Shown here: positions 4,791-55,625 of the stretch, one piece after another
How the letters are laid out: every line of letters begins with the position of its first letter
Position numbering within the stretch: the first letter of the stretch is position 1
From: Burkholderiales bacterium LSUCC0115
GTDB taxonomy: Bacteria > Pseudomonadota > Gammaproteobacteria > Burkholderiales > Burkholderiaceae_A
NCBI GenBank assembly: GCA_009646425.1
Contig: WJBW01000003.1
Location: forward strand, 124,001 to 188,000
Direction: 5' to 3'
DNA: 64,000 bases
Made by a program: the position numbers and the translations under genes
Notes under the pieces: generated by a model
The model's input: only the letters and a program-made list of their open reading frames with translations
The model's database searches: none
Told to the model about the DNA's origin: nothing

Positions 4791-5627
4791 TTAGCCCGGC
4801 TGGCCCTTCAAGCCCAGGGCATCGACGATGGCCAATGTGGGCTCTGCGCGGTTCATGGTGTAGAAGTGCAACCCGGGTACGCCCGCTGTGACCAGCTGGT
4901 CAACCAGGTCTGTGATCACCTCCTGACCAAAGGCGCGGATCGAGGCCACGTCATCGCCAAACCCAGCGAGCCTCTGCCGAATCCAACGGGGGATGTCGGC
5001 ACCGCAGGCATCTGAAAAGCGAGCCAGCTGGCTGTAGTTGGTGATCGGCATGATGCCTGGGGTGATCGGGATGTCGATTCCTTGCTGGTAGGCCTCATCG
5101 ACAAACCGAAAATAAGCATCACTGTTGAAGAAGTACTGGGTGATGGCACCGTTGGCGCCGGCCTTGACCTTGTTGACGAAGTGACGCAGGTCATCCTGGG
5201 CCGTTTTGGCTTGAGGGTGAATCTCCGGGTAGGCAGCGACTTCGATCTCGAAGGCCTGACCAAAAGACTGGCGAATAAAGCAAACCAAGTCCTCGGCATG
5301 GGCGAAGGCACCGCCCTGCCCATACCCACTGGGCAGGTCACCGCGCAGAGCGACCAGCCTGGAAATGCCCTTGCTCTGATAGTCCGTCAGCAGGCTGGTC
5401 ATCTCCTCGGTGCTCGCACCAATACAGGAGACGTGCGGTGCCACTTTTTGGAAGATGCCCTGCATCTGGGTGACCGTCGACAGGGTCCCCTCTCGGGTGG
5501 ACCCGCCGGCGCCATAAGTCACCGAGACATATTGGGGGTGAAGTCGCGCAAGCGTCCTGGCGGTGTCGGCCAGAGACGCCTGGGCGCTTTCCGTTTTGGG
5601 CGGAAAGAACTCCAGGCTAATCTGCAT
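4791..5627 (-). CDS. metF: 5,10-methylenetetrahydrofolate reductase
   Basis: FAD enzyme that reduces 5,10-methylene-THF to 5-methyl-THF for methionine synthesis. The 278-residue single-domain bacterial form begins with EFFPPKT, the TIM-barrel start containing the catalytic Glu. The FAD-binding segments ALRGDLP and AAYPEIHP, and the later TQYFFNSDAYFRF, are intact. It starts 8 bp after the ahcY stop on the same strand, so it should sit on the same transcript and share control by the SAH riboswitch ahead of ahcY. A GC-rich inverted repeat overlaps its stop codon, between the convergent metF and fthC ends. Confidence 0.95.
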   Translation of the reverse strand: MQISLEFFPPKTESAQASLADTARTLARLHPQYVSVTYGAGGSTREGTLSTVTQMQGIFQKVAPHVSCIGASTEEMTSLLTDYQSKGISRLVALRGDLPSGYGQGGAFAHAEDLVCFIRQSFGQAFEIEVAAYPEIHPQAKTAQDDLRHFVNKVKAGANGAITQYFFNSDAYFRFVDEAYQQGIDIPITPGIMPITNYSQLARFSDACGADIPRWIRQRLAGFGDDVASIRAFGQEVITDLVDQLVTAGVPGLHFYTMNRAEPTLAIVDALGLKGQPG

Positions 5628-5635
5628 AAGAACCC

Positions 5636-7057
5636 TTAGTAGCGGTAAGTCTCTGGCTTGTAGGGACCTTCGACGGGCACGCCGATGTATCGGGCCTGAT
5701 CACCGCTGAGCTCGGTCAGCATGGCACCGATCTTCGTCAGGTGCAGTCGTGCCACCTTCTCGTCGAGGTGTTTGGGCAGCACGTAAACCTTGCCCTTCTC
5801 GTAGTAGTCGCTGTGGCAGAACAGCTCGATCTGGGCGATGGTCTGGTTGGCGAACGAGGAGCTCATAACAAAGCTCGGGTGACCGGTGCCGCAGCCCAGG
5901 TTCACCAGGCGCCCCTGGGCCAGCAAGATGATGCGCTTGCCGTCGGGGAAGATCACATGATCCACCTGGGGCTTGATCTCTTCCCATTTGCACTTGGCCA
6001 AAGAGGCCACGTCGATCTCGTTGTCGAAGTGTCCGATGTTGCAGACGATGGCCTGGTCCCTCATGGCAGCCATGTGGGCATAGGTGATGACGTCTTTGTT
6101 ACCAGTGGCCGTTACAAAGATGTCGGCCTTGTCGGCCGCGTACTCCATGGTGACCACTTTGTAGCCCTCCATGGCGGCCTGAAGGGCGCAGATGGGGTCC
6201 ACTTCGGTGACCCAGACCTGAGCAGACAGCGCGCGAAGCGCCTGAGCTGAGCCTTTGCCCACGTCGCCATAACCGGCGACCACAGCGATCTTGCCGGCGA
6301 TCATGACGTCGGTGGCACGCTTGATGCCATCGACCAGTGACTCACGGCAGCCATAGAGGTTGTCGAACTTGCTCTTGGTCACCGAGTCGTTCACATTGAT
6401 CGCACGGAAGGCGAGCGTGCCCTTGGCGCTCATCTCCTTTAGGCGATGGACACCGGTGGTGGTCTCTTCGGTCACACCGATCACGGCGTCGAGGTGACGC
6501 TGATAGAAACCAGGATCTTTGGCGAGCTGCTTTTTGATGGCAGCAAACAGGCAGGTCTCTTCTTCACTCTTGGGGGTACCCAACACGCCGATATCTCGAG
6601 CGGCCTCAGCTCCGAGGTGCAGCAGCAGGGTGGCATCGCCACCATCGTCCAGGATCATGTTGGTGGGCTGGCCATCCGTCCACTCAAAAATGCGGTGGGT
6701 GTAGTCCCAGTACTCCTCCAGGCTCTCCCCCTTCTTGGCGAAGACCGGCACGCCGGCCGCAGCGATGGCGGCAGCGGCATGGTCTTGGGTGGAGAAGATA
6801 TTGCAAGAGGCCCAACGAACCTGGGCACCCAGCGCCGTGAGGGTCTCGATGAGTACAGCCGTCTGGATGGTCATGTGCAGCGAGCCGGTAATGCGCGCGC
6901 CCTTGAGGGGCTGCTTGGCGGCGAACTCTTCACGAATGGCCATCAGGCCAGGCATTTCGGTCTCGGCAATGCGAATTTCTTTGCGACCCCAGTCGGCGAG
7001 CGACAGGTCGGCTACAACATAGTCTGGCTGGTTTGCGGGTTTGAGTACGGCACTCAT
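5636..7057 (-). CDS. ahcY: S-adenosyl-L-homocysteine hydrolase
   Basis: Hydrolyses SAH to adenosine and homocysteine, removing the inhibitor of methyltransferases. The 473-residue protein has [14 protein letters not shown] (substrate/NAD region), the [11 protein letters not shown]-binding loop, and the family C-terminus KPETYRY. Length fits the bacterial form. I chose the ATG at 7057 because AAAGGA lies at 7065-7070, 7 nt upstream, and the SAH riboswitch occupies 7083-7158; a longer frame to 7168 would run through the aptamer. metF follows after 8 bp. Expression should rise when SAH accumulates. Confidence 0.96.
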
Positions 7058-7082
7058 CTCGCGGTCCTTTCTGAATGGATTC

Positions 7083-7158
7083 GCGAGCGCCGTTGAAGAG
7101 CCCGGGGAACGGGCCACCCGAGCCTGGGAGGATGAGACCTCTCGCAACGCTCCTCGAG
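7083..7158 (-). promoter_or_regulatory. SAH riboswitch in the ahcY-metF leader
   Basis: The leader carries the conserved blocks of the S-adenosylhomocysteine riboswitch in order: CGAGGAGCGTTGC (7156-7144), CCAGGCTCGG (7127-7118) and AACGGCGCTCGC (7094-7083). Base pairing agrees with the known fold: GAGCG (7152-7148) pairs with CGCTC (7089-7085) as P1, and CGAG (7156-7153) pairs with CTCG (7122-7119) as the pseudoknot. The ahcY ribosome site is only about 13 nt downstream, which suggests control of translation. This class is known to switch ahcY on when SAH binds. Confidence 0.88.
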
Positions 7159-7252
7159 TGAGCCCCAATTCTCTCCCAGGCCAGACGCTTGGTCAAGGCT
7201 GAATGTCTGCAGAGGCCGGCGTCTGCCCCGGCCCCTTTTGCACTGCGGCTGG

Positions 7253-8416
7253 CTACAGGCAGCGGGCCTTGAGCGCCTCGGCCTTGTCGGTAGCTTCCCA
7301 GGTGAACTCTGGCTCTTCGCGCCCGAAGTGGCCATAGGCCGCCGTCTTTTTGTAGATGGGGCGCAGCAGATCCAGCATCTGGACGATGCCACGTGGACGC
7401 AGATCAAAGACTTCACGCACAGCGGCCGCAATCTTCTCGTCAGCGACCACCCCGGTGCCCTCGGTGGTGACCCAGACCGAGGTGGGCTCTGCCACGCCGA
7501 TGGCGTAGCTCACCTGCACCAGGGCCTTTTTGGCCAGCCCAGCGGCGACGATGTTCTTGGCCACATAACGGCCTGCGTAGGCCGCGGAGCGGTCCACCTT
7601 GGAGGGATCCTTGCCCGAAAAGGCGCCGCCGCCGTGAGGCGCCGCGCCACCGTAGGTATCGACCACAATCTTGCGACCGGTCAGGCCGCAATCGCCCTGT
7701 GGGCCGCCAATGACAAAGCGGCCGGTGGGATTGACCAGATATTTGATGTCGCCCTTGATCAGCTCTTTGGGCAGGATGGGTTTGATGATCTCCTCGATCA
7801 CGGCCTCGCGGAGCTGCTCCAGCGAGACATCGGGTGCATGCTGCGTTGAGAGCACCACCGTGTCGATGCTGTCGGGCCGACCATCGACGTAACGCAGGGT
7901 GACCTGGGATTTGGCATCGGGACGCAGCCATGAGAGACGGCCATCTCGACGGACCATGGACTGACGCTCGACCAGTCGGTGTGACAGGTGGATGGCGGCT
8001 GGCATCAGCACCGGGGTCTCGTCGCAGGCATAGCCAAACATCAGGCCCTGGTCACCAGCACCCTGATCCAGACCATCGTCGTAGGCTTTGTTTACGCCCT
8101 GGGCAATGTCTGGACTCTGCTTGTCATAGGCCACCAGAACCGCACAGCCTTTGTAGTCGATGCCGAATTCGGTGTTGTCGTAGCCAATGCCCTTGATGGT
8201 CTCGCGGGCCACCTGGATGTAGTCCACGTTGGCCCTTGTGGTGATCTCGCCGGCCAGCACGACCAGGCCGGTGTTGCACAGGGTCTCGGCGGCGACGCGG
8301 GAGGTGGGATCCTGGGCGATGATGGCATCCAGGATGGCATCAGAGATCTGATCTGAGACTTTGTCGGGGTGACCTTCGGAAACCGATTCCGAGGTAAAGA
8401 AGTAGTCTTGAGCCAT
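7253..8416 (-). CDS. metK: S-adenosylmethionine synthetase
   Basis: Makes S-adenosylmethionine from methionine and ATP. The 387-residue protein has the N-terminal [18 protein letters not shown], the [16 protein letters not shown] hexapeptide region and [19 protein letters not shown], the P-loop-like motif near two thirds of its length. The ATG at 8416 has a good site, AAAGGA at 8424-8429 with 7-nt spacing; a TTG two codons upstream is less likely. The 151-bp spacer to the divergent lpxL holds a SAM-II-like aptamer and an alternative-pairing region that could hide this ribosome site. Confidence 0.96.
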
Positions 8417-8423
8417 TCGCAAT

Positions 8424-8463
8424 TCCTTTGAAAGACAGACAGCCTGCGGTTGTCTCTAAAGGA
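8424..8463 (-). promoter_or_regulatory. Putative expression platform (SD-sequestering hairpin) of the metK leader
   Basis: UCCUUUAG (8463-8456) can pair perfectly either with CUAAAG of the aptamer (the P2 3' strand, 8499-8494) or with the metK ribosome site AAAGGA (8429-8424). The two pairings exclude each other. The segment between contains a supporting hairpin, AGACA paired with UGUCU. This predicts that SAM binding locks CUAAAG in the pseudoknot and frees UCCUUU to cover the ribosome site, turning metK off. The pairing is seen in the sequence; the mechanism is inference. Confidence 0.5.
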
Positions 8464-8489
8464 TGCGAGCAGGATTGGCCTGATGCGCA

Positions 8490-8548
8490 CGCGCTTTAGC
8501 GGTATTTAGAAGACAATCGCCCCGCAAGTTGTCGATTAAATCGGCGAT
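8490..8548 (-). promoter_or_regulatory. SAM-II-like riboswitch aptamer in the metK leader
   Basis: On the minus strand, a 6-bp P1 (AUCGCC at 8548-8543 with GGCGAU at 8521-8516) encloses a loop that starts with GAUUUAA (8542-8536) and ends with CUUGC (8528-8524). The 3' tail carries UAAA and then GCUAAAG (8500-8494). GAUUU after P1, CUUGC before the 3' side of P1, and a downstream GCUAAAG able to pair with CUUGC as the H-type pseudoknot are the hallmarks of the SAM-II class known mainly from alphaproteobacterial met genes. Two unpaired G residues before the P1 3' strand and a longer L3 depart from the usual form. Placement before metK supports the call. Confidence 0.62.
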
Positions 8549-8567
8549 AGGAATCACTATAGACCTT

Positions 8568-9455
8568 ATGACCGCTTTATTTCAAATTGCTGCCCACCTG
8601 CCTCTGTGGTTATTGCGCCTATTCGGCTCCGCCCTGGGGCTCGCCACCTGGCTGCTCTCACCCGCCTATCGCAGGATGTTTGCCCAGAACTGGACCCTGG
8701 CCATGGGCTCGAACAATGGCTCGCTCTCGGTCGTGGCCAAATGGCGTGCGGCGGCCCAGGCGGGGCAATTGGTGACGGAGTTACCGAAAATCTGGTGTGA
8801 CCCGGCTTCGGTACAACGCATGCAGATTGAGGGTTTGGAGAACCTTCACCAAAGTGTGGCCGCTGGTCGTGGCGTGATCATCCTGACCCCGCACCTTGGC
8901 GCCTTTGAACTCGCCCCCCGGGCCATTGGTCAACACCACCCCATCACAGTGCTCTATCGGCCGTCACGCCAGCCGGTGGTCGAGCGACTGCTGCAGCGAC
9001 TCAGGCCCACCCCCACCGTGGCAACAGCCCCTGCCAACGCCGCAGGCGTTCGCCAATTGCTTCGAACCTTAAAAAAGGGACAGGCCATTGGCATGCTGCC
9101 GGACCAGGTGCCATCCAAGGGCGATGGTCAGTGGGCCCTATTTTTTGGTCGACCGGCTTACACCATGGTCTTGCCGATGCGACTGGCCCAGGCCACCGGC
9201 GCCGCCCTGGTCTGGGCCTTGGCCCTCAGGACATCCGGTGGCTGGCGATTGGTACTGGAGACTTGGGAGCCGGTGCCGGAGACCGACTCTGCGATGACTT
9301 TGGAACAGATGGTGCTCCAGATGAATCGCAAGACCGAGGAGATGATTCTCCGTAAGCCCGAGCAGTACCTTTGGGCCTACAACCGTTACAAGACGCCGCC
9401 CCAAGCTGGTTCGGCCTCGGCGCAGAACCAAGCCGCCGAGGGGCTGCCTTCATGA
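8568..9455 (+). CDS. lpxL: Lipid A biosynthesis lauroyl/myristoyl acyltransferase (first copy)
   Basis: Inner-membrane acyltransferase that adds a secondary acyl chain to Kdo-lipid A precursor. The 295-residue protein starts with a hydrophobic anchor (ALFQIAAHLPLWLLRLFGSALGLATWLL) and has the catalytic HX4(D/E) motif in TPHLGAFE, followed by the YRPS and GMLPDQVP blocks typical of the LpxL/HtrB family. A TTG frame extends to 8529 but lies in the metK/lpxL control region, so I take the ATG at 8568 although no strong ribosome site precedes it. It overlaps the second acyltransferase by 4 nt (ATGA), so the pair is translationally coupled. Confidence 0.9.
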   Translation: MTALFQIAAHLPLWLLRLFGSALGLATWLLSPAYRRMFAQNWTLAMGSNNGSLSVVAKWRAAAQAGQLVTELPKIWCDPASVQRMQIEGLENLHQSVAAGRGVIILTPHLGAFELAPRAIGQHHPITVLYRPSRQPVVERLLQRLRPTPTVATAPANAAGVRQLLRTLKKGQAIGMLPDQVPSKGDGQWALFFGRPAYTMVLPMRLAQATGAALVWALALRTSGGWRLVLETWEPVPETDSAMTLEQMVLQMNRKTEEMILRKPEQYLWAYNRYKTPPQAGSASAQNQAAEGLPS

Positions 9456-55041: not shown

Positions 55042-55625
55042 CAATGGGTCCCGTTCTGTGCATGGGACTTGCACTTCAGAATGAAGTCGCAGACCTCGCG
55101 AACCGCCCCTGCGCCGGCAGGCCATTGGGCTGTCCACATGGCCTGCCGGCGGACCTCTGAAATAGCGGTGGGCACTGAAGCTGAAAACCCAACGGCCTGC
55201 ATCACAGGCAGGTCGGGCAGGTCGTCGCCCATGTGCCCACAGGCCTGCAGTGCCAGCGACCGTCGCTGACAGATGTCCTGTAGCTGGCTCAGTTTGTCTT
55301 GAAGGCCGAGGTGTACTTCAGTCAGGCCCAGCTCTTTGCCGCGGGCGACCACCGCCGGGTGGTTTCGTCCGCTCAGGATGCCAACCAAGACGCCGGCTTC
55401 TTGGAGCATCTTCAGTCCATGACCGTCGAGCACATGAAAGCGTTTCAGGGCCTCGCCGTTGCCGTCGTAGAACAGACCGCCATCGGTCATCACACCATCG
55501 ACATCGAAGAACATGGCCTTTAGCCCTGCTGCGCGGCTTCGCGTTAAAGAATCTCTCTGCAAGACTGTGAGATCAGTGGGCGTGGTGTCTGTCGCCATGG
55601 CTTGGGTGACGGGCGGGGTCGACAT
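55041..55625 (-). CDS. kdsC: 3-deoxy-D-manno-octulosonate 8-phosphate phosphatase
   Basis: HAD-family phosphatase that releases Kdo for LPS core. The 194-residue protein has motif I FFDVDGVMTDG, GILSGRNHPAV (motif II) and GHMGDDLPDLPVM (motif IV). It lies in a one-base overlap with both kdsD and lptC. The N-terminal 25 residues before the motif are longer than usual and an internal start is possible. Confidence 0.94.
   Translation of the reverse strand: MSTPPVTQAMATDTTPTDLTVLQRDSLTRSRAAGLKAMFFDVDGVMTDGGLFYDGNGEALKRFHVLDGHGLKMLQEAGVLVGILSGRNHPAVVARGKELGLTEVHLGLQDKLSQLQDICQRRSLALQACGHMGDDLPDLPVMQAVGFSASVPTAISEVRRQAMWTAQWPAGAGAVREVCDFILKCKSHAQNGTH

Follow-up and report, generated by a model that had tools for sequence, protein, structure and literature searches.

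A SAM-II-like pseudoknot upstream of metK in Burkholderiales, a candidate riboswitch acting on the metK ribosome site

In the window analyzed here, a 64,000-nucleotide stretch of DNA from Burkholderiales bacterium LSUCC0115, the metK transcript is probably headed by an aptamer of the SAM-II/SAM-V superfamily, folded as a compact H-type pseudoknot, through which SAM would exert feedback on metK translation. In the proposed mechanism, P1 (AUCGCC/GGCGAU) and P2 (CUUGCGG with CCGCUAAAG) would enclose a SAM pocket formed by UUU of L1, UUGC, and GCUAAA. At low SAM, the joining strand of the aptamer would hold an anti-ribosome-site strand, and the metK ribosome site would be open. When SAM is bound, the joining strand and GCUAAAG would be locked in the pseudoknot, freeing UCGCAUCCUUU; the freed strand would then pair with AAAGGAAUUGCGA and block metK translation, so that the product of the enzyme limits its own synthesis. 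Comparison among relatives brought out the motif, helices P1, P2, and P2a across the family, the placement of the promoter, the link to metK, and a predicted masking of the ribosome site above chance.

A 2014 survey (Leyn et al., PMC4239095), in its available text, reported that no regulator was found for metK in beta-proteobacteria, and the element is a direct candidate for that regulator. The same text confined SAM_alpha to Rhizobiales and Rhodobacterales, and did not identify its metXZ pseudoknot as SAM-II. A published report of the metK element was not found in the accessible part of the open-access literature on SAM-II and metK.

Results and Discussion

A SAM-II-like element in the metK leader

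The landmarks reported in the earlier note, namely P1, GAUUUAA, CUUGC, and GCUAAAG, were correct by sequence read, as was the 151-bp spacer, which separates the metK ATG (8416) from the ATG of a divergent gene (8568). The whole motif, from P1 through the tail, spans 8548-8492 of the minus strand (Table 1). The divergent gene had been named lpxL; it does encode an acyltransferase, of which the best model was a lysophospholipid acyltransferase, with weaker scores for the LpxL models. CUUGC followed by GCUAAAG at the pattern spacing occurred twice in the window, against 0.14 expected. The second match (CTTGC...GCTAAAG, 55518-55563, minus strand) gave no hit with model R2 and probably reflects chance. 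Folding energy carried no signal (z-scores of -0.81, -0.45, and 0.04, from a folding program that cannot model pseudoknots), and it is because the base pairs covary in relatives that they are taken as more than chance. Given the metK-ahcY-metF cluster, the locus appears to contain one SAM-type and one SAH-type switch; with the metK leader and the SAH riboswitch before ahcY, the methyl donor and its by-product would each be sensed within a single cluster.

Table 1. Features of the metK leader and neighboring genes in the window
Feature	Position	Strand	Basis or remark
P1 5′ strand AUCGCC	8543..8548	minus	sequence read; P1 covariation in relatives
P1 3′ strand GGCGAU	8516..8521	minus	sequence read; P1 covariation
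L1 GAUUUAAUCGACAACUUGC	8524..8542	minus	GAUUUAA from 8542; CUUGC 8528-8524
L1 UUU, aligned with SAM-II U10-U12	8540-8538	minus	alignment made in this analysis; contacts from available text of PMC3764141
L1 UUGC, aligned with SAM-II U20-C23	8527-8524	minus	alignment made in this analysis; contacts from available text of PMC3764141
Linker GG, 2 nt	8522..8523	minus	pairs with CC 8502-8501, lengthening P2; covariation
Joining strand, including P2 nucleotides CC	8501..8515	minus	ends UAAAUACC
AAAU in joining strand	8507-8504	minus	aligned with SAM-II A-minor strand
3′ tail GCUAAAGCG	8492..8500	minus	forms the 3′ side of pseudoknot P2 and begins P2a; invariant in all 20 A1 sequences
GCUAAAG	8500-8494	minus	sequence read
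Anti-ribosome-site strand UCGCAUCCUUUAG	8456..8468	minus	pairs with 8429-8417 in downstream-only fold, MFE and centroid
UCCUUUAG	8463-8456	minus	sequence read
Ribosome site AAAGGA (8429-8424) with flank UGCGA	8417..8429	minus	predicted closed state: masked by 8468-8458
Alternative helix, UGUCUUCUAAA (8515-8505) with UUUAGAGACA (8460-8451)	8451..8515	minus	full-leader MFE; with aptamer unformed, ribosome-site hairpin opened
-35-like hexamer TTGAAA	8580..8585	minus	inside start of divergent acyltransferase gene; consensus scan
-10-like hexamer TATAGT	8556..8561	minus	ends 7 nt before P1; consensus scan
metK, methionine adenosyltransferase	7253..8416	minus	NCBIfam TIGR01034, 595.8 bits
SAH riboswitch RF01057, between metK and ahcY	7078..7161	minus	55.4 bits; gathering score 37
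ahcY	5636..7057	minus	TIGR00936, 609 bits
metF	4791..5627	minus	TIGR00676, 320.6 bits

The covariance-model check that had been proposed for SAM-II (RF00521; cut-off 36 bits) returned no match at the element: cmscan gave none, whether over 8200-8800 (E up to 5) or over 8470-8560 (E up to 10), and in a genome search, which scored 150 of 306 first-look candidates, none was listed there down to 10.9 bits. SAM-V (RF01826), SAM/SAH (RF01727), and other credible families likewise gave no cmscan match at the element (E up to 5; up to 10). RF00521 hits elsewhere in the genome of the window, at 14.8 bits or less, were taken as noise, since all 14 control genomes also gave hits when searched with E up to 10. 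Rfam 15 thus misses the element in the window, and annotation based on Rfam would miss it too.

P1, P2, and P2a covary in relatives

Covariation was counted over 145 distinct sequences, selected with a pattern that holds constant ACUUGC, GCUAAAGCG, a purine linker, and, in the 3′ strand of P1, the inner bases; the counts below take sequences as independent and are inflated by relatedness. The outer pairs of P1 (pairs 5 and 6) were formed in 143 and 115 of the 145, respectively, and none of 2000 permutations did as well. Pairs 7 and 8 showed nothing in the same sequences, and P1 is therefore about 6 bp long. The linker was found to pair with the two bases before GCUAAA, and partners slid along the 145 sequences showed nothing. 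In P2, pairs 24-41 (GC 80, AU 52, GU 12, one mismatch) and 25-40 (GC 141, AU 3, one mismatch) were each formed in 144 of 145 sequences, with 0 of 5000 permutations as good for either; in three of 12 leaders read later (G039, G067, and G086), the linker is a single base and pair 24-41 is absent. L1 is joined to the bases after GCUAAAGC by a short P2a, whose two variable pairs were formed in 138/145 and 132/145 (0 of 2000 permutations). The P2a of the window retains one of three pairs, and only the first can form.

In a 20-row alignment, 94.0% of cells paired, compared with 38.7-44.5% when the partners were slid; changes on both sides were seen in 15 cells versus 4.3 in shuffles, and none of 500 shuffles reached the covariation score. 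The number of pairs with a double change (4 versus 2.3; 37/500 shuffles) and of further pair types (11 versus 10.4; 236/500 shuffles) was unremarkable in this alignment. The covariation of P1 and P2 that the earlier note had proposed to look for was thus found. Because of it, chance and DNA-level conservation were rejected as explanations. The latter would make the stretch a promoter or operator between two divergent genes; it does lie between metK and the divergent gene and carries a promoter, but compensatory changes in P1, P2, and P2a that no permutation reached, and the presence of the type in tandems before other genes, render this reading highly improbable. A conserved UCGCC was also seen within 7 nt after GCUAAAGCG in 62 of 113 leaders, and it might compete with P1.

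The motif is conserved and linked to metK

When the leader of the window was used in blastn against 61 genomes (its own and 60 relatives), 30 loci were obtained, of which 28 held the SAM-II-like motif by regular expression. From these 28, 20 sequences were picked and aligned without structure (A1); TTAA, ACAACTTGC, AA, and GCTAAAGCG were invariant. The earlier note had held that a missing model hit together with missing conservation would speak against SAM-II. The model hit was missing, the motif was kept in the leaders of relatives, and the proposal is therefore not refuted. Its substance, a SAM-II-like pseudoknot before metK, is borne out by covariation and by the pocket nucleotides described below, but membership in SAM-II as Rfam defines it is not, as there was no RF00521 match.

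An exact core pattern run over species genomes matched at least 119 loci. Among the matches listed, metK lay 53-250 nt downstream (median 64.5) in 96 of 119, and 1.5 and 2.2 kb downstream in two others; three loci ended too early, and 18 had no metK downstream within the sequence examined. Record titles among these listed matches include Cupriavidus, Polynucleobacter, Bordetella, Dechloromonas, Polaromonas, Chromobacterium, and one Desulfobulbus.

Seventy genomes drawn evenly over the order were then considered, and in 22 a model hit lay no more than 400 nt from metK. In all 22 leaders, when read, (C/A)UUGC was preceded by A, which marks the metK type; canonical copies have G. In one of them (G034), P1 was GGCCACC/GGUGGCC, a compensatory change within the helix. 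RF00521 was over its cut-off of 36 bits at metK in none of these 22 genomes, one of which scored 20.9 bits there (E up to 1, strict filters). Twenty leaders were fetched from the other 48 genomes, which had no model hit this close to metK, and the motif was seen by eye in none of the 20; the 48 include one (G031) in which metK starts at a contig edge. A stray GCTAAA stood beside the start codon in one of these motif-less leaders (L226). In another of the 48 (G053:C22:46503-46702), a second metK-like gene, 60% identical, was preceded at a distance of 1.2-1.4 kb by two tandem model hits, and the main metK had none.

Hits of R2 in 311 of 399 genomes were rejected as a census of the metK type, since R2 also scores canonical SAM-II; distance to metK was used instead. 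Of 299 genomes of the phylum, 37 were hit by R2: 18 in the order (including that of the window), 14 elsewhere in the class, and five elsewhere in the phylum. One family, f55, accounted for 11 of the 14. The same core, with P2a paired differently, was present in all six f55 copies examined by reading (L197, L200-L202, L204, and L205). In the five of six that were translated, a short downstream reading frame of about 100 aa, not metK, was observed; by eye, its end resembles a methyltransferase C-terminus.

A promoter next to P1 and a masked ribosome site

A sigma-70-like promoter, TTGAAA-18-TATAGT, was the only one found (10 of 12 consensus matches; 0.2 expected). In relatives, a -10-like hexamer ended 3-12 nt before P1, mostly 6-7, in 109 of 115 metK-linked leaders, compared with 25 expected from shuffles. 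Because the -10 hexamer stands at this distance both in the window (7 nt) and in relatives, the RNA probably starts at the aptamer. No terminator-like site was found at 8380-8640.

When the sequence downstream of the pseudoknot was folded by itself, UCGCAUCCUUU paired with AAAGGAAUUGCGA and the ribosome site of the window was buried, which supports the ribosome-site hairpin that had been proposed. When the full leader was folded without the pseudoknot, UUUAGAGACA paired instead with the joining strand UGUCUUCUAAA. The predicted probability that the ribosome site is unpaired was 0.335 without the aptamer and 0.036 with the aptamer imposed, and a SAM-on, translation-off switch in the window fits this computed openness. 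By eye, the alternative helix can also be drawn in a leader of the same genus (L002), but not in L003.

These pairings differ from those first suggested, in which a downstream CUUUAG would compete for CUAAAG of the aptamer. In the full-leader fold of the window, the anti-ribosome-site strand paired with 8515-8505 and not with GCUAAAG. Moreover, among 113 non-redundant leaders (125 metK-linked rows minus one long leader and 11 duplicate cores), an exact CUUUAG downstream was present in only one, the window's own, against 1.3 expected; the same-genus leader L002 also has it, but its core is a duplicate and it is not among the 113. The exact competition is not kept across the family. When G-U pairs were accepted as well, the motif was found in 14 of the 113 leaders (5.9 expected), a slight surplus in favor of the competition as originally proposed.

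Over the 113 leaders, computed openness of the ribosome site was 0.231, compared with 0.338 in shuffles, and 27 leaders were at or below the lowest 5% of shuffles. General switching between apo and holo forms was not convincingly found across these leaders: openness was 0.250 when free and 0.240 with the aptamer imposed, falling by more than 0.05 in 17 leaders, rising by more than 0.05 in 12, and changing by 0.05 or less in 84. This last figure would agree with a ligand-free structured leader in which the hairpin alone, a protein, or a small RNA sets metK translation. Such a leader, however, would not require the triple-helix pocket to be conserved or P1 and P2 to covary, and tandems with a canonical SAM-II copy and a T-run (see below) point to the same ligand; we regard it as quite unlikely. 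The off-switch in the preferred, SAM-responsive reading is supported by computation for the window and would extend by inference to the family. SAM as the ligand, the OFF direction, and the exact switching pairs are what we infer from the whole.

The nucleotides of the SAM-II pocket are retained, with two departures

According to the available text of PMC3764141, the SAM-II pocket comprises U10-U12, U20, U21, G22, C23, and G42-A47; U11 and U21 face the sulfonium, U44 contacts the adenine, A47 holds the methionine end, and A36/A37 lie in the A-minor strand. Counterparts of all the listed pocket nucleotides are present in the window, and the equivalents of U11, U12, U20, U21, G22, C23, and G42-A47 were invariant in all 20 sequences of A1. 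The exception is U10, described as invariant in SAM-II, which is U in the window and G in 113 of the 145 sequences.

With SAM-II (RF00521), the element shares the H-type pseudoknot, GAUUU in L1, CUUGC, an A-rich joining strand, GCUAAAG, and the pocket nucleotides given in that text (PMC3764141). Unlike SAM-II, it had no RF00521 match in the window, it has G at position 10 in most sequences, and in the metK type an AA/C internal loop splits P2 into P2b and a short P2a. In canonical SAM-II, P2a adjoins P2b without an internal loop; this is our reading of the canonical sequence, as the available text of PMC6061858 gives only the lengths of P2a. The likeness to SAM-V extends to the fold, the pocket logic, translational control, and a place after a SAM-II copy in tandems (PMC2704228, PMC11508383, and PMC9481103, each in its accessible part). 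The SAM-V ribosome site, however, lies in P2a. The one found here belongs to a separate hairpin and, in the window, follows the tail GCUAAAGCG by 63-68 nt; the SAM-V covariance model had no match in the window. Like SAM/SAH (RF01727) of Rhodobacterales metK, the RNA lies directly upstream of metK (PMC2864571, available text), but the RF01727 model had no match in the window.

The two departures could mark a ligand shifted to SAH, methionine, or another adenosyl compound. The change of U10 to G in 113/145 sequences, the position of the AA/C loop adjoining A47, which holds the methionine end (PMC3764141, in part), and the 18 of 119 listed loci without metK downstream are all compatible with such a shift. 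We nevertheless consider it unlikely, as the two sulfonium-facing uridines are invariant in A1 and metK is the dominant target. In addition, the SAM-V equivalent of U10 contacts the adenine-binding uridine by one hydrogen bond and not the ligand, as far as the available text of PMC6061858 describes it, and a G could presumably give the same hydrogen bond.

Canonical SAM-II in the same order, and tandem loci

The earlier note had expected SAM-II to be unusual in a beta-proteobacterium. This was not the case: RF00521 was over its cut-off in 10 of the 70 genomes of the order, in addition to the variant before metK in 22. Twelve RF00521 loci were fetched there (35.3-45.2 bits); by eye, 11 preceded metX or metZ and one was a tandem locus. 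In the 11 metX/metZ loci (L206-L212 and L214-L217), a terminator-like hairpin followed by a T-run lay between the RNA and the gene. CAGCUUGC was present in 10 of the 12 loci where the metK type has ACAACUUGC, and by this change P2 is broken into P2b, the AA/C loop, and P2a. The metXZ element of beta-proteobacteria, as presented in the available text of PMC4239095, is found in the same bacteria and is likewise a pseudoknot, with two pairings conserved; it precedes metX or metZ and a terminator, unlike the metK element. The RF00521 matches at metX/metZ leaders suggest that the metXZ element is canonical SAM-II and a sister type of the metK element, a suggestion made independently of the alignment published in that paper.

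The two types were also found together. Among the listed pattern loci without metK inside 400 nt, 11 of 20 had a further SAM-II-like copy whose end lay 68-173 nt before ACAACUUGC, separated from it by a T-run, as did two of the three listed loci that ended too early. An upstream copy was seen in none of the 96 listed metK loci, one of which had too little upstream DNA. Tandem SAM-II with a terminator followed by ribosome-site control has already been described (44 tandem examples, some so arranged, in the accessible text of PMC9481103), and the arrangement itself is therefore not new. In all 13 tandem loci, the upstream copy had GCUUGC and the downstream copy ACUUGC, the latter fixed by the search pattern. 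In L012, L014, and L022, the upstream copies scored 24.0, 38.4, and 34.2 bits, respectively, with RF00521, and the type B copies had no match at E up to 1.

These loci bear on whether the metK element is simply an ordinary SAM-II, missed because the Rfam seed is too alphaproteobacterial, with the AA/C loop a sequence preference without consequence. That the SAM contacts are kept, and that even the canonical-looking copies of the order score just ~24-45 bits against a cut-off of 36, would agree with this; the consistent pairing of GCUUGC with ACUUGC in 13/13 tandems (again, the latter by search pattern) and the RF00521 scores confined to the upstream copies of L012, L014, and L022 argue against it. 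We hold it to be possible, with less than even weight. In function it overlaps with the SAM-feedback reading favored above and differs from it in classification, so the two are not mutually exclusive. Tentatively, and with no more confidence, the metK type could instead be a separate class of SAM riboswitch in the SAM-II/V superfamily, characterized by the AA/C loop and, in most cases, G10, and having its own affinity or selectivity. It would then set SAM synthesis in about one-third of the sampled Burkholderiales-type genomes, canonical SAM-II would set homocysteine synthesis (metX, metZ), and elsewhere both would be stacked before a small protein and a MATE-like transporter, which may in that case move a SAM-related compound. 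A second natural SAM-II fold beside the canonical one in tandems would show the effect on affinity or switching of an internal loop near the methionine end of the pocket.

Several tandems (L020, L022 [same genome as L058], L055-L057, L106, and L146) precede a protein of about 100 aa without a Pfam match and, by eye, a MATE-like protein; this pair is a possible new target of SAM regulation. In L143, from an Azoarcus bin, three SAM-II-like elements occupy about 640 nt (reverse complement, 1316-1953), with metK 1.5 kb further down, and in the third a ribosome-site-like GAGGAG comes right after GCUAAA. In L120 (1130-1177) and L161 (4950-4997), GCUAAA of a SAM-II-like element adjoins a ribosome-site-like CAGGAG before a 105-aa frame; the L120 protein had no Pfam match. 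Finally, RF02424 (Burkholderia sRNA Bp2_287) was recorded below its cut-off in L012, L014, L022, L025, and L027, on the strand opposite the SAM-II copies, and this family may be an antisense reading of SAM-II-type leaders.
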